The notes below the pieces were generated by a model. It searched no databases. It was not told the DNA's origin and saw nothing but the letters and a program-made list of their open reading frames with translations. From assembly GCF_002009425.1 (NCBI RefSeq), contig NZ_CP019936.1, positions 3,893,297 to 3,957,296 of the forward strand: a stretch of DNA of 64,000 nucleotides, in the 5' to 3' direction. A program made the translations under genes and the position numbers. Positions 37,197-57,801 of the stretch are shown piece after piece (position 1 is the first letter of the stretch; every line of letters starts with the position of its first letter). The stretch is from Thiosocius teredinicola (GTDB taxonomy: Bacteria; Pseudomonadota; Gammaproteobacteria; Chromatiales; Chromatiaceae).

Positions 37197-38105
37197 ATGC
37201 AGAACTTCAAACTCAACCTGAAACACCTGCGCTATTTCTGGACGGTAGCCAGCCACGGCACCATCGCACGCGCCGCCGAGGCCCTGTACGTCACGCCACA
37301 GACGATCAGCGGTCAACTACACGAACTCGAACAACAACTCGGCGCCAAGCTGTTCTCGCGTGACGGTCGTCAGTTGGTGCTGACCGACACCGGCCGGCTG
37401 GTGTTCTCGTATACCGACGAGATGTTTCGCCTCGGTCTTGAACTGCAAGATACGCTGGATGGTAACACCGCAGGCGCTTCGATCACGGTACGCGTCGGCG
37501 TAGCGATGGTGGTGCCGAAGCTGCTCGCCTATCGCGTGTTGGAGCCTGTTTTGCAGATGGCTGAACCGGTAACGCTGATCTGCCAGGAGGCACCGCTGGT
37601 CGATCTGCTTGCCGATCTGTCAGTGCACAAGCTCGATGCCGTGTTGGCCGATGTGCCGGTCAGTCCGACGCTCAACATCCGCGCTTACAATCACTCGCTG
37701 GGCGATTCCGGTATCAGTTTCTTCGGCACGCCCGAGAAAGCCGCGGCGTTGCGCGAAGGTTTTCCGCAAAGCCTCGATAACGAGCGCATGTTGATGCCGA
37801 CCGGCGGTAGCAGTCTGCGCCGCAATCTGGAGTCCTGGTTCGAACACCAGGGTATCAAACCGATGGTGGTTGCCGAGTTCGACGATCGCGCGCTGATGAA
37901 GGCGTTCGGTGAACGCGGCACCGGCATCTTTACCTCGCCCACCGCGGTCGATCAGGATGTAATGGATAAGTACGGCGTCGACGTCATCGGTCGAACGACC
38001 GAGATCAAAGAACAGTTTTTCATTATTTCGCCGGAACGCCGCATCAAGAATCCAGCGGTCACCGTGGTGACCGAAGCAGCGCGCAAACAATTGTTCGTGA
38101 CCTGA
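37197..38105 (+). CDS. nhaR: LysR-type regulator, NhaR-like
   Basis: 302 residues. The N-terminal helix-turn-helix LKHLRYFWTVASHGTIARAAEALYVTPQTISGQLHELEQQLGAKLF is very close to NhaR, and FEHQGIKPMVVAEFDDRALMKAFGERGTGIFTSPT matches its effector domain. NhaR activates the Na+/H+ antiporter gene nhaA in E. coli in response to Na+. Here it stands 43 bp after the Usp gene at the end of the antiporter operon, so control of that operon is a strong inference. Confidence 0.85.
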   Translation: MQNFKLNLKHLRYFWTVASHGTIARAAEALYVTPQTISGQLHELEQQLGAKLFSRDGRQLVLTDTGRLVFSYTDEMFRLGLELQDTLDGNTAGASITVRVGVAMVVPKLLAYRVLEPVLQMAEPVTLICQEAPLVDLLADLSVHKLDAVLADVPVSPTLNIRAYNHSLGDSGISFFGTPEKAAALREGFPQSLDNERMLMPTGGSSLRRNLESWFEHQGIKPMVVAEFDDRALMKAFGERGTGIFTSPTAVDQDVMDKYGVDVIGRTTEIKEQFFIISPERRIKNPAVTVVTEAARKQLFVT

Positions 38106-38769: not shown

Positions 38770-39696
38770 TCAGGCAGGTTCACAATCGTCGAGATGACGC
38801 GCGACGACGCAATTTCGACCGTCGCACTTGGCTTGGTAGAGCAAAGCATCAACCGCGCCGATGAAGGCATGTAGATCATCGTTCTTGTTGGGGCTAATCG
38901 ATGCGACCCCTACGCTAACCGTCAGTCTTCCCTCGATAGGACTGTGCTGATTGGGAATCTTCAAGTCGCAGATCCTTGCGACGGCGTTCGAGATCATTGT
39001 TTTCGACTCGTGCAGGTGCGTACCGCCGAATACCAAGGCAAATTCCTCACCGCCGTAGCGTGCACACAGGTCTGTCGGGCGTTTCGCCAGACCACCCAGT
39101 ACTCCGCCAACAGCACGCAGACTATCGTCGCCGACCTGATGACCGTAGGTATCGTTGATCAGCTTGAAGTGATCGATATCGAGGAGCGCCAACGACAATG
39201 GCATGGCAAATCGGGAACAGCGCTTCCATTCTGTTTGCACGAAATCGTCGAAACAACGCCGATTGGACACACCGGTCAATCCATCCACACGGGACAGGCG
39301 CAATGCCTCCTGCTCGGCACGTTTTCTTTCCGTAATATCATGGTGCGAAATGACGAACCGGTTCTCGTCCGATGCAACAATGCGCATCATGTACCAAAAC
39401 TCTGCCGTCGCCGTATGGCATGGGTATTCGTAGTAGAAAGAATCGAGTTCACCGCTGATCGTGCGGCGTATGCCTGCCGCGACCTCGGCACCATGCGGGT
39501 CACCGTCTGCTGCAGCGCGGTCACAGACCTCGATGTAGTTCTGTTTCGCCCAATCGGTAGGTGAGCCTTCGCCGTACGCTCTGTCGTAGTCCGACCATGC
39601 CTTGTTGGCAAAAACGATATTGCCTTGCTTATCGATTACGACGAGACGTTCGGCAATCGCATCAAGTACCTGTTTGTAGAATTTTTCAGAAACCAC
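38770..39696 (-). CDS. PAS-GGDEF diguanylate cyclase
   Basis: 308 residues from GTG 39696. Residues ~5-125 are a PAS/PAC sensor (LVVIDKQGNIVFANKAW ... VISHHDITERKRAEQEALRLSRVDGLTGVSNRR). The GGDEF domain has active site RYGGEEFALV and an I-site RPTD five residues upstream, so active synthesis with product inhibition is expected. No membrane segment. The PAS ligand is unknown. Confidence 0.88.
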   Translation of the reverse strand: MVSEKFYKQVLDAIAERLVVIDKQGNIVFANKAWSDYDRAYGEGSPTDWAKQNYIEVCDRAAADGDPHGAEVAAGIRRTISGELDSFYYEYPCHTATAEFWYMMRIVASDENRFVISHHDITERKRAEQEALRLSRVDGLTGVSNRRCFDDFVQTEWKRCSRFAMPLSLALLDIDHFKLINDTYGHQVGDDSLRAVGGVLGGLAKRPTDLCARYGGEEFALVFGGTHLHESKTMISNAVARICDLKIPNQHSPIEGRLTVSVGVASISPNKNDDLHAFIGAVDALLYQAKCDGRNCVVARHLDDCEPA

Positions 39697-41247: not shown

Positions 41248-41532
41248 TTATTTACCCGGTTTGCCCGGGTTGTTGCCGGGCGAACCACTATCGCCCGCGG
41301 GTGTTCCATCGGCGGTGACATCCTTGATCGCTCTTCGGCGTTCATATCCCATACCGAACCACGTCCAGGATTCGTCCGACGATTCCCCTTCATTGTCTTC
41401 CGGATCGCCCCAAACGTCGCCATTCGGCGACGCCTGGGGTTCTGTCTGACCGGCAGGTTCGGCGACGACGGCAGCAGGCAGGCCGAGCAGACCGACACAA
41501 ACCATCGCAATCAACAAACCGAAATACCTCAC
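41248..41532 (-). CDS. Small exported protein, Pro/Gly/Asp-rich
   Basis: 94 residues from GTG 41532, with GGAGGGG 3 nt upstream. A clear Sec signal peptide (LLIAMVCVGLLGLPAAVVA) is followed by a ~70-residue mature chain rich in Asp, Glu, Gly, Pro and Ser, with WTWFGMGYERRRAIKDV in the middle and a GNNPGKPGK tail. No Cys in the mature part. Family unknown. It is the first of several small exported proteins in the electron-transfer block. Confidence 0.65.
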   Translation of the reverse strand: MRYFGLLIAMVCVGLLGLPAAVVAEPAGQTEPQASPNGDVWGDPEDNEGESSDESWTWFGMGYERRRAIKDVTADGTPAGDSGSPGNNPGKPGK

Positions 41533-41565
41533 CTGCCCCTCCGACGTTACATGCAGATGGTGGGA

Positions 41566-41940
41566 TTATCGGCGACCACCACCGCCTGAACCGCGTCCGG
41601 CCGATCCACCACCGAAACCGCCCCGGCCGCTGCTATTTGCAGAGCCGCCGCGGGATGCCCCGCCAAAACCATCGCCGCTATGCAGCCGGTTTTGGTAGCG
41701 ATTACGCTCCTGTTTACGCAGACGCTGCTGTTGCCCACCGCCGCCATAATACTCCGACGGCAGTTGCCTGTCGGTCTGGTAGCGGTATCGTGACTCTTCT
41801 TGCGTTCGCACAACACTTTGTGTCGCCGAAGACTCTATTCTAGGAGATGAAGAAGTCTCCGCGATGGTCAAGGTTGGAAAAACGACTACCGCTGCGATCA
41901 GCGAGAGAAGGGTAAAACGCATGCTGGACGAATTGGTCAT
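41566..41940 (-). CDS. Small exported protein with Gly/Arg-rich C-terminus
   Basis: 124 residues from ATG 41940 (ATG 41922 also possible). A signal peptide ends near LTIA, then a Ser/Gln/Arg-rich region and a C-terminal ~35-residue glycine-rich, Arg-ended tail (GGFGGGSAGRGSGGGGRR). No Cys in the mature part. It lies divergent from the response regulator gene, and the phased TGTTTC repeats lie between them. Confidence 0.65.
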   Translation of the reverse strand: MTNSSSMRFTLLSLIAAVVVFPTLTIAETSSSPRIESSATQSVVRTQEESRYRYQTDRQLPSEYYGGGGQQQRLRKQERNRYQNRLHSGDGFGGASRGGSANSSGRGGFGGGSAGRGSGGGGRR

Positions 41941-41987
41941 ATCACCACCGTGATGTTGAGTTGTTCAACGCAAGCATGGCCGAAACC

Positions 41988-42036
41988 TGTTTCCCCCCTG
42001 TTTCCCGCTGACCTTGAAATTGTTTCGATGTGTTTC
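41988..42036. promoter_or_regulatory. Phased TGTTTC direct repeats (OmpR-type binding site candidate)
   Basis: TGTTTC occurs at 41988, 41999, 42021 and 42031, spaced 11, 22 and 10 bp, i.e. on one face of the helix. This is the geometry used by OmpR/PhoB dimers. It lies between the divergent Gly-rich exported gene (start 41940) and the response regulator gene (start 42065), suggesting autoregulation. Confidence 0.6.
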
Positions 42037-42064
42037 TCCGGCAGATGGAGCGATTTCGACGAAC

Positions 42065-42793
42065 ATGGACAACACCGCAAAAAACATCCTTATTGTCGAC
42101 GACGACGACAAACTGCGTGACCTGGTGATCCGCTACCTCGGCGGCGAAGGCTTTAGCGTTGCCGGCGCCGGCGATGGAGAGCAGATGGACACCTACCTCG
42201 CCGATCATGACGTCGACCTGGTCGTGCTCGACCTGATGCTGCCCGGGGAAGATGGATTGTCGATCGCCCGGCGGCTGCGCGGTTCGGTCAATATACCGAT
42301 CGTTATATTGTCTGCGCGCGGCGATGAAGTCGATCGCATCGTCGGCCTGGAAGTTGGCGCCGACGACTACCTGGCGAAACCGTTCAATCCACGCGAGCTG
42401 CTGGCGCGCATTCGCGCCGTGCTGCGTCGCAGCGATATGCACGCCGCCAACCAGGAAACACTGCACGAAAGCCACCTTTACCGATTCGGTGGCTTCACGT
42501 TCGATCTGCTGGCACACAGCCTGATCCGCGAGGACACGGTGATCGAACTGACGCCGGGCGACTCGGCACTTCTGGAAGCGATGGTCACCAAGCCCAACCG
42601 GGTGCTCAGCCGCGATTCGCTGATCGAGAACCTCAAAGGCTACGAGCGTTCACCCTTCGATCGCAGCATCGACGTCCGCGTGACGCGTCTGCGCAAGAAG
42701 ATCGAACCCAACCCGGAGCATCCGCAGTTCATCCGTACCGTGTGGGGCAAGGGCTACATGTTCACGCCGCAGGGTAACCCGGCGCCGCAGTGA
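42065..42793 (+). CDS. OmpR-family response regulator
   Basis: 242 residues from ATG 42065. The receiver has acidic pocket VDDDD, phosphoacceptor Asp56 (LVVLDLMLP) and Lys105 (DDYLAKPFN). The C-terminal winged helix has NRVLSRDSLIENLKGYERSPFDRSIDVRVTRLRKKIEPNPEHPQFIRTVWGKGYMF. It is cognate to the kinase that follows with a GTGA overlap. Phased GAAAC/GTTTC repeats in its own and two neighbouring promoter regions are its likely targets. Confidence 0.93.
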   Translation: MDNTAKNILIVDDDDKLRDLVIRYLGGEGFSVAGAGDGEQMDTYLADHDVDLVVLDLMLPGEDGLSIARRLRGSVNIPIVILSARGDEVDRIVGLEVGADDYLAKPFNPRELLARIRAVLRRSDMHAANQETLHESHLYRFGGFTFDLLAHSLIREDTVIELTPGDSALLEAMVTKPNRVLSRDSLIENLKGYERSPFDRSIDVRVTRLRKKIEPNPEHPQFIRTVWGKGYMFTPQGNPAPQ

Positions 42794-44106
42794 AGATTTC
42801 GCCATTGCCCTCCACCCTGCTCGGCCGGACCGCGATGGCCCTGGCCGTCGCGTTCTTGTTGTTCGCGATCGTGGCCGTATCGCTGCTTCACTATTCACTG
42901 ATCAAACCGCATACCAAGCAGGCCGCCGACGATCTTGCATCATTCCTGGTATTGGTCGCACAGATCTGGGTGGAACTCCCACCCGACACCCGCGCCGACT
43001 ACGAGAAAGAGCTGCTCGAACGTCACTCGATCAAGGTGATCGCCAGTGAAGCACCGCATCCGACGGATTCCGATCCGAGTCCGTATCTCGAGTACCTGAC
43101 ATCCGCGTTGAGCAGACACATCGGCGAACCGGTGTTGATTCATGCCCACCCCAATCACCCCGAGTGGCTGTGGGCCGACTTTCCGATGGGTGGGCGTGTC
43201 ATGCGATTGGGCTTCAAGGCGGACCGTGTGCGCAACAGCCTGCATGTGATTTTGCCGCTCCTGGCAACCATTGCGCTGTTCATCGCCTTCGTGGTGTCGG
43301 TGGTTCTCGTTGGCCGCATCACCCGCCCCCTGGCAAAAATGGCAGAGGCAACGCATCGCATCGGTGAAGGCGACTTCACCGTCAGCCTGCCCGAGTCCGG
43401 TCCGCGAGAGATCGCCAACCTGGCGCAACGACTCAACCAGATGGAATCGCAGATCAGGCAGTTGGTCGAGAATCGCACGACGCTGCTTGCCGGCATCTCG
43501 CATGATCTGCGAACCCCTTTGGCGCGTATGCAGGTGGAACTGGAACTGTTGCACACGGCCGACGACCAGGCCCTGGTCGACGGCCTGCGTCAGGACATCG
43601 ACGAGATGGAACACCTGATCGCGCAGACCCTGCTACTGGCGCGTGGCAGCGGCGGAGAAGATCCGGTCGCAACCGACGTTGTCGCTCTGCTCAACGACGT
43701 CGCAGGCGGATACAGTCTGCGCGGGGGATCGATCACGCTCGACAGCTCGGCTGTCACCTCGTGCGTCATCACGCTGCGTGCGAACGCGCTGCGACGCGTC
43801 ATCGGCAACCTGATCGAAAACGCGATCGCCTATGGGGAAGGCAAGCCGGTAGCGATTGTCTGCACACAAGCGGGCGGCAACCTGCAGGTGCAGATACTCG
43901 ATCAGGGGCCTGGGATTCCGGCAAGTGAGCGCGATGCCATCTTTCAACCGTTTCATCGCGTCGAAGGTTCACGCAACCGCCGCACCGGAGGCAGCGGCCT
44001 GGGGCTCGCGATCGTTCAACAGTTATGCGACTCGAACGGTTGGCGGGTAACGCATCGCAACCGCGCGCAAGGCGGCAGTGAGTTCACTGTCCACCTTGCA
44101 CGGTGA
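42790..44106 (+). CDS. EnvZ-type sensor histidine kinase
   Basis: 438 residues from GTG 42790. One membrane segment at ~12-35, a periplasmic domain (~36-150), a second membrane segment (~153-177), HAMP (RITRPLAKMAEATHRIGEGDF), H-box GISHDLRTPLARM with His238, and an ATPase domain (N-box VIGNLIENAIAYG, DQGPGIP, GGSGLGLAIV). The periplasmic domain has no recognised ligand family. It is translationally coupled to the response regulator and convergent with the His-rich exported gene. Confidence 0.93.
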   Translation: MKISPLPSTLLGRTAMALAVAFLLFAIVAVSLLHYSLIKPHTKQAADDLASFLVLVAQIWVELPPDTRADYEKELLERHSIKVIASEAPHPTDSDPSPYLEYLTSALSRHIGEPVLIHAHPNHPEWLWADFPMGGRVMRLGFKADRVRNSLHVILPLLATIALFIAFVVSVVLVGRITRPLAKMAEATHRIGEGDFTVSLPESGPREIANLAQRLNQMESQIRQLVENRTTLLAGISHDLRTPLARMQVELELLHTADDQALVDGLRQDIDEMEHLIAQTLLLARGSGGEDPVATDVVALLNDVAGGYSLRGGSITLDSSAVTSCVITLRANALRRVIGNLIENAIAYGEGKPVAIVCTQAGGNLQVQILDQGPGIPASERDAIFQPFHRVEGSRNRRTGGSGLGLAIVQQLCDSNGWRVTHRNRAQGGSEFTVHLAR

Positions 44107-44135
44107 AAACAACACCGTTCGTCACGGACTCGACC

Positions 44136-44516
44136 TCATTCGTGCTCGAAGATGACCTCGACCACGGTACGACTCGGACCGCCCCGGCCCTTGCCGCTGA
44201 GCGCACGACCACCACGATCAGCCCGACCTTTGCCTTTAGCGCCCCCGGACTCGTGCCCACCGGATGCATGGTCGCCGTCGTCATGGCTATCCGTGTCGTG
44301 ATCATGGCTGTCTGAGTCATGGCCCGTGTGATCGCTACTGGTGTAATCGTGACTCGAGCCACCCCCGGCGTGTCCGCCTTTGCCGCCGGCGGCATAGGCC
44401 ACCGACGGCATATTCAAACCGGCAACGATTGGCGGCTGTGCCGGCCAAGTGCCGAATACGCACACCACCACGGCGGCAGAGACCCACAGCAGCGAACGCT
44501 TCTTGATTCGCAGCAT
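44136..44516 (-). CDS. Exported His/Asp/Gly-rich protein
   Basis: 126 residues from ATG 44516 (AGAGGAG 7 nt upstream). A signal segment runs to about residue 45 (ends SVAYA). The mature chain begins GGKGGHAGGGSSHDYTSSD and continues with a His/Asp block (about ten His in 35 residues), then a Lys/Arg/Gly region and VVEVIFEHE. The composition suggests metal or polyanion binding in the periplasm or outside the cell. No Cys in the mature part. No known family. It lies 78 bp downstream of the 425-residue exported protein, same strand. Confidence 0.7.
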   Translation of the reverse strand: MLRIKKRSLLWVSAAVVVCVFGTWPAQPPIVAGLNMPSVAYAAGGKGGHAGGGSSHDYTSSDHTGHDSDSHDHDTDSHDDGDHASGGHESGGAKGKGRADRGGRALSGKGRGGPSRTVVEVIFEHE

Positions 44517-44594
44517 CTCTTCGCTCCTCTTCGATCTGGCCGCCACGCCGCCTTCTACTGACAGCGTGGCGACCGCCTGGCTAGGACTCACCTG

Positions 44595-45872
44595 TTACTC
44601 AGGCGGTTCGTAATCGTGTACGAACTCAAGTACCTGAACCGCATCGTCTGCGGCTTGCGTGAACAGGTAGATGCCGCTCAGCGCATCCTCATATTGAACG
44701 GACTGCTCGTCGGTGTAAGCCATTACCTCCGGCTGAGACACCGTGTTCCAGATGTCGCCGGCGTACTGATCGATCAGGCTCAGCACGTCGCCCGTTGCAG
44801 TGAAGTAGGTGCCATCACCTTCCGGGTCGACCAACACCGAAACGATCTCACCATCGAACGCAGCCGCCTTGTCGTAGGTGTAAGACTCCATCAACGAAGC
44901 CAGCTCGTCGTCGACACCCAGGAAGCTGCTGATCAGCATAATCTCATCGGCCGTCAGCTCACCGGTCTTGTCGGAACTGGCCGCGATAGCGGACGCAGCG
45001 AGATCAAGCCGAACTGCGGGGTCGACATAGATCGTGTAGACCGAGTCGGCTCCGTCTTTCGACGCGGTCACGCTCAGTTCAAGCAAGGTACGATCGTCGA
45101 CGGTGACTTCCTTCGCGGTCAGCAATGCTTCGTAGATCGCCAGGTTCTCCAGCGGCGAGTCGATGGATGCATCGCCGATAACGAACCTGCCGGAGGCATC
45201 AGTGACGGCAGCAAGGTTGCTGGCGTCGATGACGACCAGACCGTCTTCATTGGCCGGCAGGGTCACCAGTTTGCTCAATGCCTCGGTCAGCGCGTGCTCA
45301 AGCACGCTGGCCGGCGAACGTGCGATGTTCATGCGACCGAACTCGACCGGTACTGCCAGATCGAGATAGGCAGAAGGCACTTCGCCGTCGACGGTTTTCA
45401 CGACAGTGCCGTCCGACAACAGGATGTAGTACTCATCACCTGCCATAACCGGGTTACCGTCGGCGTCACGCAGGACCACGAACAGGTCACCGTAGTCGCC
45501 GCCTTTCTTGCGATCGCCACCGGCGTTACCGCCGCCCGGCTTGCCGTCTCGGCCCGGCGTTCCGGCCCACTCCGGCCGGTCTGAGTCTTCTTCACCTTCG
45601 TCGGAATCCGACAACACGTCACGCATGGATTTGCCACCACGGTAACCCTGGCCACCGGCACCCCGGTCACCTTGGCCACCGCCTTTTTGGCCCATCGCGC
45701 CGTGTTTTCCGCCGCCATGACCGCCATCATCTTGCGCATAGGCAGTCGATACGAACAACGACACACCGCTCGATAAATCAACGGATTGATCGATCGACAC
45801 GATGCCACCGATTGCGACAGCCATGGCCGCAGCCAACGCTGTCTTGTTGAATAAACGCCTTGTGTTTTTCAT
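44595..45872 (-). CDS. Large exported protein of unrecognised family, Cys-free mature chain
   Basis: 425 residues from ATG 45872 (AAGGGAG 8 nt upstream). A Sec signal ends near STAYA. A Gly/Lys/His-rich linker (GGHGGGKHGAMGQKGGGQ...) runs to residue ~110, then an acidic globular part (~125-425) with GDLFVVLRDADGNPVMAGDEYYILLSDGTVVKT and a C-terminal LDQY/EFVHDYEPPE region. No CxxCH or other cofactor motif. Its promoter region holds phased GAAAC repeats, and its linker resembles the His-rich protein at 44136-44516, so the two probably act together. Function unknown. Confidence 0.75.
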   Translation of the reverse strand: MKNTRRLFNKTALAAAMAVAIGGIVSIDQSVDLSSGVSLFVSTAYAQDDGGHGGGKHGAMGQKGGGQGDRGAGGQGYRGGKSMRDVLSDSDEGEEDSDRPEWAGTPGRDGKPGGGNAGGDRKKGGDYGDLFVVLRDADGNPVMAGDEYYILLSDGTVVKTVDGEVPSAYLDLAVPVEFGRMNIARSPASVLEHALTEALSKLVTLPANEDGLVVIDASNLAAVTDASGRFVIGDASIDSPLENLAIYEALLTAKEVTVDDRTLLELSVTASKDGADSVYTIYVDPAVRLDLAASAIAASSDKTGELTADEIMLISSFLGVDDELASLMESYTYDKAAAFDGEIVSVLVDPEGDGTYFTATGDVLSLIDQYAGDIWNTVSQPEVMAYTDEQSVQYEDALSGIYLFTQAADDAVQVLEFVHDYEPPE

Positions 45873-46035
45873 GGCCGCTACTCCCTTAATTGCAACTCCC
45901 TTCAGTCGTGTTTTGACCAAGCGTCACCTCCCGGCGCCTGCAAGCGGAGGTTTCTCAACGTCCTCCTCTCACGTTCAGTGTATGGCGCGGATGACTACCG
46001 AATCGGTTCAGCATGTTGCATGTATTGCGCTCGGT

Positions 46036-46102
46036 GAAACGCTCGAAACAATTGGTTACATATCCGTTTATTGATGAAACCGTCGCGAAATCCTCGTGAA
46101 AC
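46036..46102. promoter_or_regulatory. Phased GAAAC direct repeats
   Basis: GAAAC or close variants start at 46036, 46045, 46055 (GTTACA), 46076, 46087 (GAAAT) and 46098, spaced 9, 10, 21, 11 and 11 bp. The motif GAAACAATTGG at 46045 is repeated at 49086. It is located between divergent exported-protein genes (starts 45872 and 46188). Likely response regulator sites (inference). Confidence 0.6.
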
Positions 46103-46187
46103 TCCCGATCGGTATCCTGGCCTTTCAAACGCCAATCAATTCATTCCCAAACCAATCAAAGTCAGCTATCGACCGGGAGCGCATCCG

Positions 46188-46466
46188 ATGACCTTACGAA
46201 TCGGCCTACCATTCACATTGATCGCTTCGCTGTGCGCTTCAACGGGCGCACTCGCCGACCACAACAGTGTTTGGGGCGAAGGCTGGGCCAACATGCCCAG
46301 CGACATCCACAACACACGTCTCGACACGATGGATGACAATGACGACTTCGTCGAATTCGTACGTATGGGAAGTGATGCGCGGTCTGTCAATCGCTTCGCG
46401 ATCGACAGCGATGCGCGTGTCAGCGAGACACCGACGAATGGGTCATTGCAACGCGGGCAGCGTTGA
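46188..46466 (+). CDS. Small exported protein
   Basis: 92 residues from ATG 46188 (GGGAG 9 nt upstream). A clean signal peptide ends at ALA, and the mature ~69 residues start DHNSVWGEGWANMPSDIHNTRLDTMDDNDDFVEFVRMGSDARSVNRF. No Cys. The ordered look of the mature chain (not low complexity) suggests a conserved small protein, but I recognise no family. It is divergent from the 425-residue exported protein and convergent with the decaheme gene. Confidence 0.65.
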   Translation: MTLRIGLPFTLIASLCASTGALADHNSVWGEGWANMPSDIHNTRLDTMDDNDDFVEFVRMGSDARSVNRFAIDSDARVSETPTNGSLQRGQR

Positions 46467-46490
46467 CACCACCGACAGCCCGACCGGATG

Positions 46491-46524
46491 GAAACAGGCG
46501 CAGCACGGCGCCTGTATTCGTTTC
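46491..46524. terminator. Bidirectional hairpin between convergent genes
   Basis: ACAGGCGC/GCGCCTGT (8 bp, loop AGCACG), extendable by GAAAC/GTTTC arms, lies between the stop at 46466 (+) and the stop at 46530 (-). No long T-run on either side. Confidence 0.5.
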
Positions 46525-46529
46525 AGCAC

Positions 46530-47516
46530 CTAGCGCATGAGCTTGGCGCCCGCCGGGTGATTACTGCCGTGCACCTGGTTATGACAGTTCGAGCAGGCTT
46601 CGCCCAACACAAACCGCGATATGCCGCGCGAGCCCGGCGCCGGGTCCGGTCCCTGGTCGGCTTGACCCGGTTCGCGGAAACTCAAGGCAAGGCGTGAATG
46701 CCGGGCATGCGGCCCCAAGGGATTGTTGGCCAGCGCGGTCGGCTCGTGACACGACTGGCACAGATGTGGTTCACGCCGGCTGAGCATACCTTGATGGATC
46801 GACCCGTGCGCATCGTGACACAACAGGCAATCTTCACTGGCGGGCTGATGCTCCCACAAAAACGGGCCGCGCTTCTCGGCATGGCATTCATAACACACCT
46901 CGTTCACCGAGAATGCCTTCAGGCCGGCATCTCCCGGGCCGCCGTGAGCGCCATGACAATCGGTACACGCCATCTCGCCCTCGCGTAACGGATGGCCATA
47001 GGGTTTATGACTCTTGGCACGCATCTCCGCGTGGCAGTCGAAGCACACCTGCTGCTGCGACGACCGCTCGACGACATCATCGGGCGAGTGTATGCGGTGA
47101 CATCCCACACATCCGACCTCTTCGAGATCGTGACCGCTCCCGGGCCAATGAATCATCTCACTGGTCTTGTGGCACCCCAGGCACACCGCATTCTGTTCAG
47201 CAACAGACAGGGTCGTGACCTTGCCAAAGGTCTGCGCCCCGTCCTGCCCACCCTGTTTGCCGGCCGACAGCACATGTTCTTCCAGCTCACCATGACAGGT
47301 CGAGCACTCGTGTACGCTGGCTGGCGTTCGCGGATCACCCGACATCCAATGCGGCGTATTGCGGATCGCGTCGTACTGCGCGCGGTGACACCCGAGGCAG
47401 ACCTCCAGCCGGATTCGCTGTTGTTGTTTCTCGCTCATCCCTTCGGCGCTTTGCGCCAGCGAGGGCTGAACCCACAGGCACGCCGCAATCAACACCCACC
47501 AAGCAGACCTGGTCAC
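46530..47516 (-). CDS. Decaheme c-type cytochrome, DmsE/MtrA family
   Basis: 328 residues from GTG 47516 with GAGAGGTG upstream. A Sec signal peptide (ends SLAQ) is followed by ten CxxCH motifs: CLGCH, CSTCH, CLGCH, CVGCH, CFDCH, CTDCH, CYECH, CLLCH, CQSCH and CSNCH. Length and heme count match DmsE/MtrA/PioA, the periplasmic wire that inserts into an MtrB-type porin. Electrons would pass between periplasm and cell exterior. It is 44 bp downstream of the octaheme gene, same strand, probably one operon. Confidence 0.92.
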   Translation of the reverse strand: MTRSAWWVLIAACLWVQPSLAQSAEGMSEKQQQRIRLEVCLGCHRAQYDAIRNTPHWMSGDPRTPASVHECSTCHGELEEHVLSAGKQGGQDGAQTFGKVTTLSVAEQNAVCLGCHKTSEMIHWPGSGHDLEEVGCVGCHRIHSPDDVVERSSQQQVCFDCHAEMRAKSHKPYGHPLREGEMACTDCHGAHGGPGDAGLKAFSVNEVCYECHAEKRGPFLWEHQPASEDCLLCHDAHGSIHQGMLSRREPHLCQSCHEPTALANNPLGPHARHSRLALSFREPGQADQGPDPAPGSRGISRFVLGEACSNCHNQVHGSNHPAGAKLMR

Positions 47517-47560
47517 TTGCCTTCACCTCTCGCCAACAGTTTCATGACTTGCCTCCGAGA

Positions 47561-49000
47561 TCACCGGTCCAACGGGAAACGCGCCTGTCCTGGTACGTAT
47601 AGCGGGTCTGCATCATAGCCGAGCTCTTTCCAAGGCAGACGCTTCTGCGTCGGACCGTGGCAATCCCTGCAACCCAAGGCGTTGTCGGCAGGCGCCACCA
47701 TGTGATTGATGCGGATATACATCAGGCTGTCGATAAAGCCATATTGCCCGCTGTAGTCCAAACCGCGTGCCTGCATACCGAGCCGCGATGCGGTATCCCA
47801 ATCCAGTGTGTAGACAAACCCGTCATCACCAACGAGATGCGGGTTTATGAGGTAGCGATGTACCTTATCGAAGATCTGTCTGCCTCGGTTGAGCTTGAAA
47901 GGATAGATTTTCGCCTCCGGATCCGACCTGTCGCCGACCGGCCAATTCAACACCAATTCGTCGCCTTGGGGGATATCTTCACCCCAACGATGCACGCCGG
48001 TTTTGCCATTGAACCAGCGATAGGCCGGAACAATATTTCTTTCCCATCTGAAACGCCCTTTGACCGGCACATACAGGGGCTTGCCGTCATCCCGCACCTC
48101 GGATTCAGGTTTGGTGCCGGCTGCGGACCAGTCCCAGTATGTCTTGGTCGCCTCGCCCTTGGCGAAGATCGGTATATGGCATGTCTGGCATGCCACGCTC
48201 AACGCATGCTGATCCAGCAAGGCATGCTTGTGCAGCGGTTTGCCCTGGTGGCAGTCGGTGCACGCCACCGCGTTGGTACCACCGGGCGAGACCGCCATGC
48301 TGCGACCGGGGATCTCATGCCGTTCGGTCTTATGGCATTGCTGGCAGCGAAAGTTGAGGCCGTCAGACGCCATGTGCACATCGATGGCTGCATCAGCGTC
48401 GATCAGGAGTTTCTCGAGATCGCCGTGTTTCACCGCATGCGCACCTCCACCGTAGAAGTGGCAGGCGCCGCAGTTGGCCCGACCCGGCGATCCGACATTG
48501 CGCGCGACGAATTCAAAGTCGGTCGCCGGGTCGGCCATCCCGCCATCGCCGCCGATGCGTTTGTAGGTGCCGGTCGTATCATGGCAGACGAGGCAATCGA
48601 TACGCGACGGGTCGTCGAAGTCGAACGCGTCGTCTTTCCATCCGTAGCCGATATGGCATTCAGTGCATTTACTGAGATTGGATGCCACGCCATAACAGAA
48701 ATTGTTGATTGCGTGACGCTTGCCGGCCGCGATGCTGCCCCGCCCGTAAACCTCCTGATTGACCGACCAGGTCCAGTGAGACGTCTGCATCACGTCGTGC
48801 GCAGCCTGCTCATGACAATCCAGACAGGTATCCGTCACATCCGGACCATCGGCAAAAGGACCTTCTATCTGCGCATGCTCTTCGATGATGGGTCGCGGTT
48901 GTTGTGCCGCGCCCTGCTCATCACCTGAAGCAAAACCGCTCAACGCCATCACAAGGCCCAGCAAGGCCAGTTCGTGGGTAGATGACTTTCGGCTATGCAT
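47561..49000 (-). CDS. Octaheme c-type cytochrome, tetrathionate reductase (OTR) family
   Basis: 479 residues with a signal peptide and eight CxxCH motifs (CLDCH, CTECH, CLVCH, CGACH, CQQCH, CTDCH, CQTCH, CRDCH). The sequence around NFCYGVASNLSKCTECHIGYGWKD and DCLVCHDTTGTYKR is typical of octaheme OTR proteins, which reduce tetrathionate, nitrite or hydroxylamine in vitro. The physiological substrate is usually unknown. It is periplasmic and divergent from the outer-membrane barrel gene across a 294-bp promoter region. Confidence 0.9.
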   Translation of the reverse strand: MHSRKSSTHELALLGLVMALSGFASGDEQGAAQQPRPIIEEHAQIEGPFADGPDVTDTCLDCHEQAAHDVMQTSHWTWSVNQEVYGRGSIAAGKRHAINNFCYGVASNLSKCTECHIGYGWKDDAFDFDDPSRIDCLVCHDTTGTYKRIGGDGGMADPATDFEFVARNVGSPGRANCGACHFYGGGAHAVKHGDLEKLLIDADAAIDVHMASDGLNFRCQQCHKTERHEIPGRSMAVSPGGTNAVACTDCHQGKPLHKHALLDQHALSVACQTCHIPIFAKGEATKTYWDWSAAGTKPESEVRDDGKPLYVPVKGRFRWERNIVPAYRWFNGKTGVHRWGEDIPQGDELVLNWPVGDRSDPEAKIYPFKLNRGRQIFDKVHRYLINPHLVGDDGFVYTLDWDTASRLGMQARGLDYSGQYGFIDSLMYIRINHMVAPADNALGCRDCHGPTQKRLPWKELGYDADPLYVPGQARFPLDR

Positions 49001-49085
49001 GTCGCCCTCGGCGTCATGTCGTTATGTACTTCTATTAAAACCATATGCCTGATGCACGCACTTCACAACGCCAAAAAAAACGGCT

Positions 49086-49145
49086 GAAACAATTGGAAAC
49101 ATTTGAGCGTTGGCTGCGTACGGGGCGCTATTTCCTACTGAAACA
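49086..49145. promoter_or_regulatory. Phased GAAACA direct repeats
   Basis: GAAACA starts at 49086, 49096 and 49140, spaced 10 and 44 bp. The block GAAACAATTGG-ACAT here matches 46045-46062 at nearly every position. It lies in the divergent promoter region between the octaheme (start 49000) and barrel (start 49295) genes. Likely response regulator sites (inference). Confidence 0.6.
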
Positions 49146-49294
49146 AATTGCCAACTGTTTTGACGTTGAACAAATATTGTTCGACTGGGAGGTTCACAAT
49201 CGGAGTAGACGGTAGTACGCGAGCTTGCAATGAAAGAACAATAAGAACAACCACAACCCGAAACACTGAACAACAGGTTGACGGGGCCAGCACA

Positions 49295-52200
49295 ATGAAG
49301 AAAACAGCAACGCGCTCACCAAGGCCAACCCAGCAATGGCGATCCGGCTTGTTGTCACTGATATTGCTATCTGCGCCTGCCCTCGCGACAGACACGGGAG
49401 TTGACACCCTCGTCGAAGCGGACGATGCGAATGAGGTCAGCACACAAGCAAAGAAACCCGGGTACCACACAACGAACTTCCGCTTCAGACCGTCGCTCAG
49501 CCTGACCGAAACCTATGACGACAACATCTTTGCCACCGATACCGGCGAGACGTCCGATTGGATAAGCGTGCTGTCGCCCCAGCTTCGCGTCGATTCAACC
49601 TGGCCCGAGCACTCGCTGAAATTCAATGCGGGTGCCGAGATCGGCCGCTACAAAGAATACGATGCCGAAAACTACCAGGACTACTGGGTCAACCTGGAAG
49701 GGCGATACAACGCGACCGACACGATAGAGCTATTCGGCGGGCTGGGCATGGCGTCAGACCATGAAGGACGCGACTCGCCCGAGGCAGAGATCGCTGGACA
49801 AAGCCCGACCACTTATTCGACGTTGAGCGCCCACGCCGGCGTCAAAACCGTATTCGATGCACTGACGTTACGCACGGGCGCCACGTTTGAACGCGTTGAT
49901 TTCGACAACGTGCCGGCAGCGACCGGCCTGTTGATCAATGACGACCGCGACCGCGATCTGTTCGGCTTGGGTGCTCGTCTGAGTTACGCATTGACCGAGC
50001 AGGATCAGGTCTTTCTTCAGGCGCTCTATGATCGACGCGATTACGACCTGGGTGAAGACATCGCCGGTTTCGACAGAGATTCCGACGGCTATCGCGCGGC
50101 GGTCGGTTTCATCAGCAAGTTCGGCGGCGGCAACAAGGCGGAGGCCTATGTCGGCGTACTCGAACAGAACTATGAAGACGATCGCTTCGACACAGTGCGC
50201 AAACCGGACTTCGGCGGCAAGCTGACGTTGCGCCCGACTCCTGCCACCAAGATCACCGCTAATCTTCAACGAGCACTCAACGAGACCACGCTAACCGGCA
50301 GTCCCGGTTATCTCAGCACCAGCTTGGCCGGTAAGATCGAGTACCGTGTAACGCCGCGCTTCATTCCCTACGCCTCAGTTGCCTACGAAGTTGCCGACTA
50401 CCTGCAATCGGCGCGCGACGACGATTCGTTGTCGGCCGAAGCGGGTCTCAAGTATTTCCTGACCCGCAACACCTATCTCGTGACCGGTGTGCGTCACTAT
50501 GCAAGGGATTCCAACGACGCCGATCGCGTTTCGGGTAGCAACGATTTCACCAAGAACACGCTGTTCCTGACGTTCGCCACGCAAGGCTACCCTCTGTTCG
50601 AGCCCTACATATCCAAGTACCGCACCGAAGGCGAGATCGACGTAGGCGTGCTGTCACTGAGCGACGATGCGTTGTTCTTCGGTCGCTACAACGGCCTCGG
50701 GGATGAAGGCGTTGAGCTGAACGGCGATGTGGATATCCGCAGCACCGACGGCGAGAGCGGCTATGCCCGCTTCAAGGGCGAGAACCTGGGGCTGGACAAC
50801 CGCTCGCTGGAGATCGGCTGGGGCTCGCAGGGCGCGTACGACACATCCATCAACTATCGGCAGATACCGTTCAGACAGTTTTCGGGCCGCAGCATATTCG
50901 ACGGCATCGACAGCGATCAGCTTTCGCTGCCCGACCTGTGGGTAAGCGGCGACAGCACGGCCGACATGACCAACCTGACATCGAGTCTCAAAGAGGTGGA
51001 GATCGGCACCATGCGTAAACGACTGGCGGCCGGTACCAAGGTGTACGCCAGCGACAACCGCTGGACCGCCAAACTGTCGTACCAGACCGAGAGCCAGGAG
51101 GGATTGCGTCAGACCTCAGGGATGATCGGCACCTCGCCCGGCAACGGTCGATCGGTGTTGTTGCCCGAGCCGGTCGACTACACGACCAACACGCTGGATG
51201 CCTCACTCGGCTTCAACGGCGAGCAGACGCAGATGAGCTTTGCATACCACGGCTCGTTCTTCTACGACAGCCTCGAGACGCTCAAATGGGAGAGCCCGTT
51301 CGATGCCACCGGGCCGCGCGGCACTGACGGCGCGATTGCCCTGCCGCCCGACAACCAGTTTCATCAGCTCTCCGTATCCGGTGTCCATGCGCTCTCGAAC
51401 ACCACGCATGTTACGGGCATCGCCTCGGTCGGCGTCATGTTGCAGGATGAAGATTTTCTGCCGGATACCGTCGATCCCGCACTCACCGCCCACAACTTGC
51501 CGCGCAGCTCGCTGGACGGCGAAATCTACCTGTACAACGCCAGCCTGGCGGTAACATCGCGACCGCTACGCGGCCTGGACCTGAAAGCCTCTTACCGCAT
51601 GCAGAAGCGCGACAACCAGACATCCAGCGACAGCTACACCTACTATGTCAACGACAGTTTCGGCGGATTGACCAATTCGCCGCAGACGAGCACCAATCAA
51701 CCGTACAGCTACGATAAGCGCACCGCCAAACTGCATGCCGGCTATCGGTTACACCGCAAGGCGCGTCTCAGCGGCGAAGTCAGTCGTGAAACCATGGAGC
51801 GCTCACCGTCCGAGGTCGACAAGACCACGGAAGATCAGGGAAAACTCAAGCTACGTCTGTCCGCCCTCGACAACCTGCACGTCTCGCTCAGCGGCGGCCT
51901 GTCCGCGCGCATCGGCTCGGATTACGAGCCGATCGCAGGCGAAAACCCCTTGCTGCGCAAATACAATATCTCGGACCGCGATCGCAAAACCCAGGGACTC
52001 GACATCTCGTGGCAACCCACCGATCGACTCGCGCTCAGCGCCAACCTGTCACTGTCTGACGACGACTACGACGATACCCGGGTAGGTCTGCGGGATGCAC
52101 AATCGACATCCTTGACCCTGGATGCCGCGTACAACCCTAACCAGGATCTGACCACCTACGCCTTCATCGGTCGCGAGATCTATGAATCGCGTCAGGCCGG

Positions 52201-52609
52201 CAGCCAGGTGCCCGACGAACCGGATTGGTTCGTGCGCAACGAGGATACGGTCGACTCCATCGGGCTGGGCGTGCGCTGGAAGAAGGATTACCGCACCGAG
52301 ATCGGCGCCGACTATGTACTGAGCGACTCGACCGGCAAGATCGATATCCGAAGCAACAATACGCTGCCTCCCGTCACACTATTTCCCGATCTCAAGGCCA
52401 AGCAACAAAGCCTGCGGTTGTATGCCGAACGCGAGATTCGCAAGAACACCAAGCTGCGGCTCGACTACCGCTATGAAAAGTACGACGCGGACGACTGGTC
52501 GATCGACGGTGTGAACGCCGATTCGATTCCCGAGGTACTGCTGCTCGACGAAGATAACCCGAGCTACGATCAACATATCATCGGCCTGTCGATCTCGGTC
52601 AGGTTCTGA
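49295..52609 (+). CDS. Outer-membrane double beta-barrel: BBP2-type barrel fused to MtrB/PioB-type porin
   Basis: 1104 residues from ATG 49295 (MKKTATRSPRP...), signal peptide ending at ALA near residue 32. Residues ~58-430 match the BBP2 outer-membrane barrel pattern (FRFRPSLSLTETYDDNIFATD, SDWISVLSPQLRVDSTW, amphipathic strands). Residues ~446-1104 match MtrB/PioB decaheme-associated barrels (GEIDVGVLSLSDDALFFGRYNGL, EPVDYTTNTLDASLGFNGEQTQMSFAYHGSFFYDS) and end in the expected Phe (SVRF). MtrB normally forms a ~26-strand sleeve around MtrA. No CxxC is seen near the MtrB N-terminus. The fusion of two barrel types is unusual. Confidence 0.85.
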   Translation: MKKTATRSPRPTQQWRSGLLSLILLSAPALATDTGVDTLVEADDANEVSTQAKKPGYHTTNFRFRPSLSLTETYDDNIFATDTGETSDWISVLSPQLRVDSTWPEHSLKFNAGAEIGRYKEYDAENYQDYWVNLEGRYNATDTIELFGGLGMASDHEGRDSPEAEIAGQSPTTYSTLSAHAGVKTVFDALTLRTGATFERVDFDNVPAATGLLINDDRDRDLFGLGARLSYALTEQDQVFLQALYDRRDYDLGEDIAGFDRDSDGYRAAVGFISKFGGGNKAEAYVGVLEQNYEDDRFDTVRKPDFGGKLTLRPTPATKITANLQRALNETTLTGSPGYLSTSLAGKIEYRVTPRFIPYASVAYEVADYLQSARDDDSLSAEAGLKYFLTRNTYLVTGVRHYARDSNDADRVSGSNDFTKNTLFLTFATQGYPLFEPYISKYRTEGEIDVGVLSLSDDALFFGRYNGLGDEGVELNGDVDIRSTDGESGYARFKGENLGLDNRSLEIGWGSQGAYDTSINYRQIPFRQFSGRSIFDGIDSDQLSLPDLWVSGDSTADMTNLTSSLKEVEIGTMRKRLAAGTKVYASDNRWTAKLSYQTESQEGLRQTSGMIGTSPGNGRSVLLPEPVDYTTNTLDASLGFNGEQTQMSFAYHGSFFYDSLETLKWESPFDATGPRGTDGAIALPPDNQFHQLSVSGVHALSNTTHVTGIASVGVMLQDEDFLPDTVDPALTAHNLPRSSLDGEIYLYNASLAVTSRPLRGLDLKASYRMQKRDNQTSSDSYTYYVNDSFGGLTNSPQTSTNQPYSYDKRTAKLHAGYRLHRKARLSGEVSRETMERSPSEVDKTTEDQGKLKLRLSALDNLHVSLSGGLSARIGSDYEPIAGENPLLRKYNISDRDRKTQGLDISWQPTDRLALSANLSLSDDDYDDTRVGLRDAQSTSLTLDAAYNPNQDLTTYAFIGREIYESRQAGSQVPDEPDWFVRNEDTVDSIGLGVRWKKDYRTEIGADYVLSDSTGKIDIRSNNTLPPVTLFPDLKAKQQSLRLYAEREIRKNTKLRLDYRYEKYDADDWSIDGVNADSIPEVLLLDEDNPSYDQHIIGLSISVRF

Positions 52610-56103: not shown

Positions 56104-56175
56104 GCGATGCCGAAACGCATCGCATCCGTCCACGGCATGCTGAGTAAGCAATAACAACACTTGCCGGAGTCTCTG

Positions 56176-57801
56176 ATGTCGTTTCCCCGAATCAAAACCG
56201 CAGCCGCCGCTGTGTGCGCATTGTCGCTCATGGGTTCGTCGGCGTATGCCGCACCTAAGCTCGAATTCACCTCCGTCTGGACCTATTGGTCGAGCGGCAT
56301 ACAAGGCACCGATCTCGAAGGTGGTGCCGAAATCGTCGCTGTCGACACTGCGTCGAATCGCGCCTTCGTCACCAATGCCGAGAATGACCGCGTCGACGTG
56401 CTGCAGCTGTCAGGCAGTGGACAAGGCACCTTGCTGGGATCATTCGATGTCGGAGGCTTTGGCTCACCGAACAGCGTCGCGGTGAGCAACGGCGTTGTCG
56501 CCATCGCGGTCGAGAACGGTGCGAACAAGCAGGACACCGGCGAGGTGTGGTTTTTCGATGCCAACGAAACCAACTTTGCCGCGCCCACAGTATCGCGGGT
56601 CGGCGTCGGCGCCCTGCCCGATATGCTGACGTTCACCCCGGACGGCAGCAAGGTGATCGTCGCCAATGAAGGCGAACCCGACTTCTATGGAGCCGGTAAT
56701 ACCGACCCGGTAGGTTCGGTCTCCGTCGTCGATGTCGCCTCGAAGACCGCCGCCACCGCGATCGACTTCGCGTCGGTCGCATTGCCGGGCGATGTCCGTA
56801 TCTTCGGACCGGGCGCGAGCCAGGCACAGGATATCGAGCCGGAATACATCAGTGTCTCACCCGACGGCAACACCGCTTACGTTACCTTGCAGGAAAACAA
56901 CGCCGTCGCGGTAATCGATATCGCCAGCAACAGCGTGACCCGCGTCGACGCATTGGGCTTCAAAGACCATAGTATTGCCGGCAACGGCCTGGATGCCTCC
57001 GATCGCGACAGCGACGGCGAGATCGAAACCTGGAACGGCCTGAAAGGCATGTATCAACCGGACGCCATCAGCAGCTATGCCGTCGGTGGCAAAACCTATT
57101 ACGTTACTGCCAACGAAGGTGATGCACGCGACTACGAAGACGCCGGGGCAGACGCATACAACGCCGGTAACCTCGGCGCGATCGAATACAACGAAGAATC
57201 GCGCGTGAAAGACCTCAACCTCGAGGGCGCGGTCGCGGGCACCGACGGCAATGACGACCTCGGTCGCTTGAATGCAACGACAACTTTGGGTGACGCCGAC
57301 AACAACGGCGCCTATGAAGAAATCTATGCATTCGGCGCGCGCTCTTTCTCAATCTGGGATGCAGCGACCGGCGAGCAGGTGTACGACAGTGGCGACCTGA
57401 TCGAGCGCATCATCGCCGAGCAATACCCGGAGCTATGGCAGGAAGGCCGCTCGGACAACAAAGGCCCGGAGCCCGAAGCCATCACAATCGCCGAGATCAA
57501 CGGCTGGTTCTATGCCCTGGTCGGTCTTGAGCGCACCAGCGGCCTCATGGTGTTCGACGTGACCGATCCGAACAATCCCGTGTACCAGGACTATATCTTC
57601 AATACCGACGACATCAGCCCGGAAGGCATCGCGTTTGCGTTGCTCAACCAAACCAACACGGGTGGTGCGGGATATGTGGTCGTATCCAACGAGGTCTCGG
57701 GTACCACCACGCTTTACGCGGTTTCTGCTGTGCCGTTGCCGGCAACGCTGGTGCTGCTCGCCATCGGAGCAGCGGCGATGCACAAGCACCGCAAACGCTG
57801 A
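56176..57801 (+). CDS. Choice-of-anchor I family protein with VPLPA-CTERM sorting signal
   Basis: 541 residues from ATG 56176 (GGAG 7 nt upstream). Signal peptide ends at AYA. The body is a beta-propeller-like repeat (GGAEIVAVDTASNRAFVTNAENDRVDVL, EPEYISVSPDGNTAYVTLQENNAVAVIDI, SDNKGPEPEAITIAEINGWFYALVGLERTSGLMVFDV) of choice-of-anchor I proteins. The C-terminus VPLPATLVLLAIGAAAMHKHRKR has the tripartite VPLPA motif, membrane helix and basic tail recognised by an exosortase. It should end up on the cell surface or in the exopolymer. No exosortase gene is in this window. Confidence 0.87.
   Translation: MSFPRIKTAAAAVCALSLMGSSAYAAPKLEFTSVWTYWSSGIQGTDLEGGAEIVAVDTASNRAFVTNAENDRVDVLQLSGSGQGTLLGSFDVGGFGSPNSVAVSNGVVAIAVENGANKQDTGEVWFFDANETNFAAPTVSRVGVGALPDMLTFTPDGSKVIVANEGEPDFYGAGNTDPVGSVSVVDVASKTAATAIDFASVALPGDVRIFGPGASQAQDIEPEYISVSPDGNTAYVTLQENNAVAVIDIASNSVTRVDALGFKDHSIAGNGLDASDRDSDGEIETWNGLKGMYQPDAISSYAVGGKTYYVTANEGDARDYEDAGADAYNAGNLGAIEYNEESRVKDLNLEGAVAGTDGNDDLGRLNATTTLGDADNNGAYEEIYAFGARSFSIWDAATGEQVYDSGDLIERIIAEQYPELWQEGRSDNKGPEPEAITIAEINGWFYALVGLERTSGLMVFDVTDPNNPVYQDYIFNTDDISPEGIAFALLNQTNTGGAGYVVVSNEVSGTTTLYAVSAVPLPATLVLLAIGAAAMHKHRKR

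Follow-up and report, generated by a model that had tools for sequence, protein, structure and literature searches.

A two-barrel outer-membrane protein and a putative porin-regulated electron conduit with an octaheme cytochrome in Thiosocius teredinicola

Electron conduits of the MtrAB type that lack MtrC, such as PioAB and MtoAB, are reported in the available text of two sources (PMC8805035; PMC6831781), the first of which also mentions that some mtrCAB clusters have an unnamed octaheme gene in their vicinity. The octaheme tetrathionate reductase (OTR) of Shewanella reduces tetrathionate, nitrite and hydroxylamine, with heme II as the catalytic heme, according to excerpts of PMC4484225, and GfcD is reported as a two-barrel protein in the accessible part of PMC11494523. 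Here, a locus of the gammaproteobacterium Thiosocius teredinicola is described, in which an MtrB/PioB barrel is joined to a second barrel in one polypeptide, next to a decaheme and an octaheme cytochrome gene. The window, i.e. the whole stretch of 64,000 nucleotides that was analysed, comprises bases 3893297-3957296 of a single-contig genome of 4,790,451 bases (NZ_CP019936.1), listed as 100% complete. The locus (window positions 41248-52609) encodes, in this order, the small exported proteins A and B (minus strand), a response regulator and a histidine kinase (RR-HK, plus), the exported proteins E and F (minus), the exported protein G (plus), the decaheme DEC and the octaheme OCT (minus) and the barrel protein BAR (plus). 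A BBP2-MtrB fusion or an OTR-MtrAB locus was not found reported in full-text searches covering part of the literature.

BAR combines a BBP2/EpsL-like porin and an MtrB/PioB barrel as two complete barrel domains of one chain. In its frame of 1153 residues, positions 105-476 match PF10082 (BBP2_2, 270 bits) over nearly the full length of the Pfam model, and positions 507-1153 match PF11854 (MtrB_PioB, 538 bits) from model position 5 to 635 of 635. The frame also scores 482 bits against the MtrB/PioB model TIGR03509, for which the cut-off is 240. The MtrB half matches chain 6r2q_B by sequence, and the same chain is the best Foldseek match of the AlphaFold model of BAR (template-modelling score 0.94 on the target). 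This model, built from 43 sequences with a mean predicted local distance difference test (pLDDT) of 72, is confident for the MtrB barrel and shows about 12 predicted strands at medium confidence in the N-terminal half, in which residues 310-440 are unreliable (pLDDT <50). EpsL, an exopolysaccharide protein, is among the best-scoring named NCBIfam relatives of the BBP2 half, with 60 bits against an unreached cut-off of 275. An earlier reading of this DNA from its letters (the original prediction) had listed a two-component system, a decaheme and an octaheme cytochrome, a barrel and five exported proteins, an inventory that is confirmed, all listed genes being present at their coordinates; its MtrB/PioB assignment of the barrel holds for the C-terminal half, while the second barrel in the same chain had been missed.

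The fusion was searched for in 210 genomes of the family, 369 genomes of the class and a named collection, from which 127 relatives were confirmed and 80 kept. It is present in full length in three of the 210 family genomes (G000, G005 and G045) and, cut by a contig end, in G124; 62 further family genomes contain some match: either the two halves lie in different frames, or only one half or short fragments are matched. The only full-length match among the 369 class genomes is that of T. teredinicola itself. The kept relatives span both halves in four cases (L155-L158), the MtrB half only in 75 and the BBP2 half only in one. Since L156, L157 and L158 are identical to the G045, G124 and G005 contigs, the fusion is seen in five genomes. 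The four others are gammaproteobacterial metagenome-assembled genomes, with 51-60% identity to the BAR of the window, and this recurrence rules out an assembly artefact as the source of the fusion. Pfam confirms both barrel domains in L155, L156 and L158, and three aligned fusions from two genera are collinear, two of them being 58% and 52% identical to that of the window. In a quick tree, in which the closest sister is not resolved, the five fused MtrB halves form one clade (Shimodaira-Hasegawa-like approximate likelihood ratio test, SH-aLRT, 100) within a set of 12 rows (SH-aLRT 98), the other rows being MtrB proteins of the same family.

The surroundings of the fusion are conserved in G005, a genome of the same genus that contains HK (cut by the contig end), E, F, G, the decaheme and octaheme genes and the fused barrel. 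As order and orientation are unchanged there, the gene block is more than a chance arrangement. A rare lineage-specific fusion of little consequence, in which two useful barrels came by chance under one promoter and were later joined in one chain without a functional link, would fit the small number of carrier genomes and the situation in G004, also of the same genus, where RR, HK and E are kept and F and BAR persist only as broken ends, so that the fusion can evidently be lost. However, conservation extends over both halves and their junction at identities as low as 51-52%, the porin module lies near MtrB in unfused relatives too, and the strict promoter box described below is specific to the locus within the genome; this explanation is considered highly improbable. 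Away from its remnant locus, G004 contains DEC and MtrB genes with two ten-heme open reading frames (ORFs) of 836 and 744 residues, in an mtrCAB-like layout (L028:9239-17620).

DEC contains ten CXXCH motifs, belongs to the DmsE family (TIGR03508, 256 bits, cut-off 192) and matches the MtrA chain 6r2q_A (E 2e-63); by these relationships, DEC and the MtrB barrel would constitute an electron conduit across the outer membrane. OCT contains eight CXXCH motifs and scores 548 bits against TIGR04315 (cut-off 375). Lys153 of the OTR structure 1SP3 (chain position), which we take to be the ligand of the catalytic heme, is conserved in the aligned OCT. DEC and BAR are divergent rather than tandem, and OCT and DEC are separated by 44 bases in the window and overlap by 4 bases in G005 (mechanical starts). 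OTR-family matches occur in 171 of the 210 family genomes, and T. teredinicola has five, at two places among the matches listed. In a quick tree, the OCT proteins of the window, G005 and G045 form one clade (support 100), apart from the 31 common OTRs used; this clade joins 1SP3 and a G002 protein (support 99, long branches flagged). Because the tree is a quick one with long branches, only the three-sequence clade is relied on here, and its separate position does not support OCT as one of the common OTRs of the family. In both G005 and G045, OCT adjoins the fused barrel. The G002 protein (L030:14921-17815) has 964 residues and 15 CXXCH motifs, with an OTR-like N-terminal part and seven more hemes in its C-terminal part, and is encoded near DEC and MtrB. 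A further region of the T. teredinicola genome (C1:2036000-2053000, L153) contains multiheme ORFs with 5, 8, 4 and 8 CXXCH motifs, the last belonging to the OTR family and the four-heme one to the NapC/NirT family. The genome also contains dsrA.

T. teredinicola has one MtrB gene, and the OmcA/MtrC family (TIGR03507, E<=0.001) has no match in the whole genome. The original prediction of an MtrAB-type conduit without MtrC, tied to its own sensor and to an OTR-family octaheme gene, is supported by these searches, by the scores of the decaheme, MtrB and octaheme models and by the RR-HK pair in the block. A separate complete mtrCAB-type locus, to which DEC might have belonged instead, is not found by the MtrB_PioB and OmcA/MtrC models, other kinds of extracellular cytochromes not having been searched. 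The prediction, which knew of no described conduit of such composition, overstated its case, since PioAB and MtoAB are known conduits without MtrC (available text of PMC8805035; PMC6831781).

An MtrAB pair without MtrC is the layout of MtoAB and PioAB (PMC8805035, in the part available), and the locus could be a plain uptake conduit of this kind for Fe(II), minerals or solid sulfur, in which the second barrel serves only to anchor or position its partner, and the neighbouring enzyme OCT makes no use of the conduit. In G124, DEC directly adjoins BAR without OCT between them, and OCT is therefore not an obligate part. The co-occurrence proposed earlier as a check is consequently conserved in part: there are five fused loci, with OCT beside the barrel in G005 and G045 and not in G124. 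An OCT homologue is absent from all 75 MtrB-only loci (E 1e-4, in fetched DNA of varying length), and T. teredinicola has other OTR-family genes, as a mere neighbour would allow. Against a plain uptake conduit stand the adjacency of OCT and DEC on one strand, with the overlap in G005, the separation of the conduit-type OCT clade from the common OTRs, and the unfused G002, where DEC and MtrB likewise have an OTR-type gene close to them. Such a conduit is regarded as unlikely.

The porin half of BAR has relatives of its own. RR, HK, A and G occur together around a stand-alone BBP2 gene in G201, G200 and G199 (L139-L141), where a B-like ORF with weak similarity to B (best E 0.007) lies between RR and A, and where the 15-16 kb contain no ORF with at least two CXXCH motifs. 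F homologues adjoin BBP2 proteins in G569, G476, G366 and G449 (L135-L138), in Ferruginivarius (L219) and in G296 (L265), again with no ORF of at least two CXXCH motifs in the fetched stretches; five of these six loci were located through the BBP2 neighbour and only that of G296 by the F search itself. As related sets of sensor, porin and exported proteins exist with no multiheme gene close by, the sensor is assigned to the porin half, and so are most of the exported proteins. For the same reason, the earlier suggestion that the exported His/Gly-rich proteins act as the outer electron component was set aside. Their description as Cys-free is approximate, as A, E and G hold one Cys each in the ORFs as listed. 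RR is best matched by the NCBIfam model of OmpR (287 bits, below the equivalog cut-off of 331) and HK by that of EnvZ (218 bits, below 415), and by these scores the pair is OmpR/EnvZ-like and not OmpR/EnvZ.

Neither Pfam nor NCBIfam offers a match to A, B, E, F or G at E values up to 0.1. The F search matched five of the 210 family genomes. Besides T. teredinicola and G005, these were G004, with a broken remnant, G124, with a piece at a contig end, and G158, where the match was weak. Among the 369 class genomes it matched eight, including G336 and G417, both weakly. The weak matches of G158 and G417 are probably unrelated, as neither BBP2 nor F was matched by blast in the fetched stretches. 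E homologues were seen only in the window, G005 and G004. The BBP2 half might export or display the small exported proteins or a polymer, which would form an outer matrix or ligand touched by the wire. This is consistent with homologues of F, G and A accompanying BBP2 barrels across genera and with EpsL as a named relative of the porin half, albeit below its cut-off. The same homologues, however, also occur without a multiheme gene nearby and hence have no specific link to electron transfer. In addition, no machinery for export was recognised, and the fold model of F is poor (mean pLDDT 41, three sequences); export or display is thus judged quite unlikely. BBP2 domains are also found in other fusions: in G449, a TolC-type OEP domain is followed by BBP2_2 (PF10082) in one 867-residue frame (L137:6573-9176), a single case, and PF10082 precedes OmpA-type barrel domains in G569, G476, Ferruginivarius and G296, where these fusions lie beside F-family genes (L135:5651-8389, L136:5530-8208, L219:9716-12355 and L265:1309-3213).

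Unfused arrangements are present in two genomes. G002, of the same genus, contains A, RR, HK, a separate BBP2 barrel, MtrB, DEC and the 15-heme OTR-containing protein within about 14 kb, and in G152 the genes for BBP2, HK, RR and A lie at most 14 kb from an MtrB gene. The simplest history would place the porin module beside the conduit first and the barrel-barrel fusion later.

OmpR sites are tandem, and an OmpR-like tandem box is present at three promoters of the locus, B/RR, F/G and OCT-DEC/BAR. Its strict form, GAAACAATTGGNNACA, was spotted by eye at the F/G and OCT/BAR promoters. With up to two mismatches, these are the only two matches in the window (0.21 expected), and with up to one mismatch they are the only two in the whole genome (reversed pattern, one match); in G005, the box is exact at OCT/BAR. 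As the strict box was drawn from its own sites, independent weight lies in the relaxed form G[AT]AACA-N4-[GA]DDACA. This form is found beside RR in all eight RR-holding module loci (the window, L029, L030, L139, L140, L141, L145 and L147), which come from three genera and therefore represent far fewer than eight independent cases, and it occurs upstream of BBP2 in L139-L142. A total of 607,701 bases gave 16 matches, one of them unrelated (L036), and none for the reversed pattern, while the 75 MtrB-only control loci (1,211,793 bases) gave one match (L172, which is the L036 site) and four for the reversed pattern. Sites with one mismatch are present in G124 at BAR/DEC and DEC/F and in G005 at F/G. 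For the strict box, G002 has only a three-mismatch match at chance level, and the box is absent from loci that lack the sensor pair (L135-L138, L143, L144, L148-L152 and L219). The box would be bound by the RR of the locus.

The conserved two-barrel chain, the relationships to MtrA, MtrB and OTR, the stand-alone porin module and the common box are compatible with an MtrAB-type conduit that is coupled to an OTR-type enzyme and that the regulon of an EnvZ/OmpR-like porin module captured when the two barrels fused, a reading to which a probability of about 0.5 is assigned. The C-terminal barrel of BAR would enclose DEC like the insulation of a wire, in the way that MtrB encloses MtrA, and electrons would pass between DEC and OCT in the periplasm. 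Chemistry of the OTR type (on tetrathionate, nitrite or hydroxylamine) would thereby be coupled to a donor or acceptor outside the cell. The N-terminal BBP2 barrel may serve as a solute pore next to the wire, passing the substrate or product of OCT, and the EnvZ/OmpR-like pair of the porin module would control the B/RR, F/G and OCT-DEC/BAR promoters via the tandem box. The direction of electron flow, the substrate and the porin cargo are putative. Several observations weigh against the proposed coupling and capture: the long branches in the OTR tree, the direct contact of DEC and BAR in G124, the location of all three NapC/NirT/CymA-family genes above the cut-off outside the block, the absence of the box at OCT/BAR in G045, and the partial modelling of the N-terminal barrel, for which a role as a pore is suggested by its family name.

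To our knowledge, Mtr-type conduits carry electrons only. If the proposed capture is correct, a second pore that is covalently joined to the conduit would bring solute and electron traffic to one spot of the outer membrane, and the sensor-and-box regulon would provide a direct handle on finding the signal. The OTR-family gene next to the conduit suggests a pathway in which a sulfur or nitrogen reaction in the periplasm is driven, or drained, by extracellular electrons. More broadly, and only as a tentative idea that is rather doubtful, BBP2 porins, in some lineages with an EnvZ/OmpR-like pair, could be a portable module that is fused onto outer-membrane machines (MtrB, TolC-type and OmpA-type), here uniting solute passage and electron transfer in one sensor-switched molecule that couples outside electrons to a periplasmic octaheme enzyme.

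The features of the locus are given in Table 1; families were assigned to the ORFs by Pfam and NCBIfam scans, and mechanical ORF starts may precede the chosen ATG. Next to the locus, an ORF on the minus strand (38770-39696) has a GGEEF-like diguanylate cyclase motif, from the translation only. Further away, three consecutive ORFs with an NADH:quinone oxidoreductase/Mrp antiporter domain (PF00361; 31634-36206, plus strand) are followed by a LysR regulator (37197-38105), and a choice-of-anchor I protein (PF22494) with a sorting-signal-like C-terminus is encoded a few kb beyond the barrel gene (56161-57801, plus strand).

Table 1. Features of the BAR locus, in window coordinates.
Feature	Position	Strand	Remarks
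A, small exported protein, no known family	41248..41532	-	Homologues adjoin the same sensor pair in G002, G199-G201, G152, G155
B, small exported Gly/Arg-rich protein	41566..41940	-	Homologue in G002 (E 2e-6), weak in G200 (E 0.007)
OmpR-like tandem box GWAACA-N4-GWAACA, B/RR promoter region	42021..42036	-	Equivalent place beside RR in 7 other loci
RR, OmpR-type response regulator	42065..42793	+	Response_reg and Trans_reg_C; mechanical ORF from 42014, first ATG ahead of receiver domain at 42065
HK, EnvZ-like sensor histidine kinase	42790..44106	+	HAMP, HisKA, HATPase_c; overlaps RR stop
E, exported His/Asp/Gly-rich protein	44136..44591	-	Homologues in G005 and G004 only
F, exported Gly-rich protein	44595..45872	-	Family seen beside BBP2 barrels; mechanical ORF to 45920
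Box GAAACAATTGGTTACA, divergent F/G promoter region	46045..46060	+	
G, small exported protein, conserved N-terminal stretch	46188..46466	+	Mechanical ORF from 46071; homologues beside BBP2 in six loci, and in G005
DEC, decaheme cytochrome, MtrA/DmsE type	46530..47516	-	10 CXXCH, TIGR03508, 6r2q_A
OCT, octaheme cytochrome, tetrathionate reductase family	47561..49000	-	8 CXXCH, TIGR04315, 1SP3; upstream of DEC, same strand
Box GAAACAATTGGAAACA, divergent OCT-DEC/BAR promoter region	49086..49101	+	Exact in G005
BAR, two-barrel outer-membrane protein, 1104 residues	49295..52609	+	ATG before signal-peptide-like stretch; mechanical frame 49148-52609, 1153 residues
BAR N-terminal BBP2_2 (EpsL-like) porin domain	49460..50575	+	PF10082
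BAR C-terminal MtrB/PioB barrel domain	50666..52606	+	PF11854, 6r2q_B

Compared with MtrAB/MtrCAB of Shewanella (6R2Q), the locus shares a decaheme MtrA-type protein and an MtrB-type barrel, the likeness resting on sequence and, for the barrel half, also on fold. It differs in the fusion of the barrel to a BBP2 barrel, in the lack of an OmcA/MtrC match in the genome, in the OTR-family gene that adjoins DEC and in the divergence of DEC from the barrel gene. The MtrAB-type pair without MtrC is shared with the electron-uptake conduits PioAB and MtoAB (available text of PMC8805035; PMC6831781), whereas a second barrel, an OTR-family gene and putative porin-type regulation distinguish the present locus. 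OCT resembles Shewanella OTR (1SP3) in its eight CXXCH motifs and the aligned Lys153, but it is encoded beside a conduit and forms a separate clade with its G005 and G045 counterparts, and its OTR activity is putative. EnvZ/OmpR porin regulation is approached by the best NCBIfam models of RR and HK and by the barrel gene and the tandem box with its 10-base period that adjoin the pair; RR and HK fall below the equivalog cut-offs, however, and the barrel is of the BBP2 type and fused to MtrB. GfcD likewise contains two barrels per chain (PMC11494523, accessible part), but the domain families differ, and in BAR one of the two barrels would be the sheath of an electron conduit.

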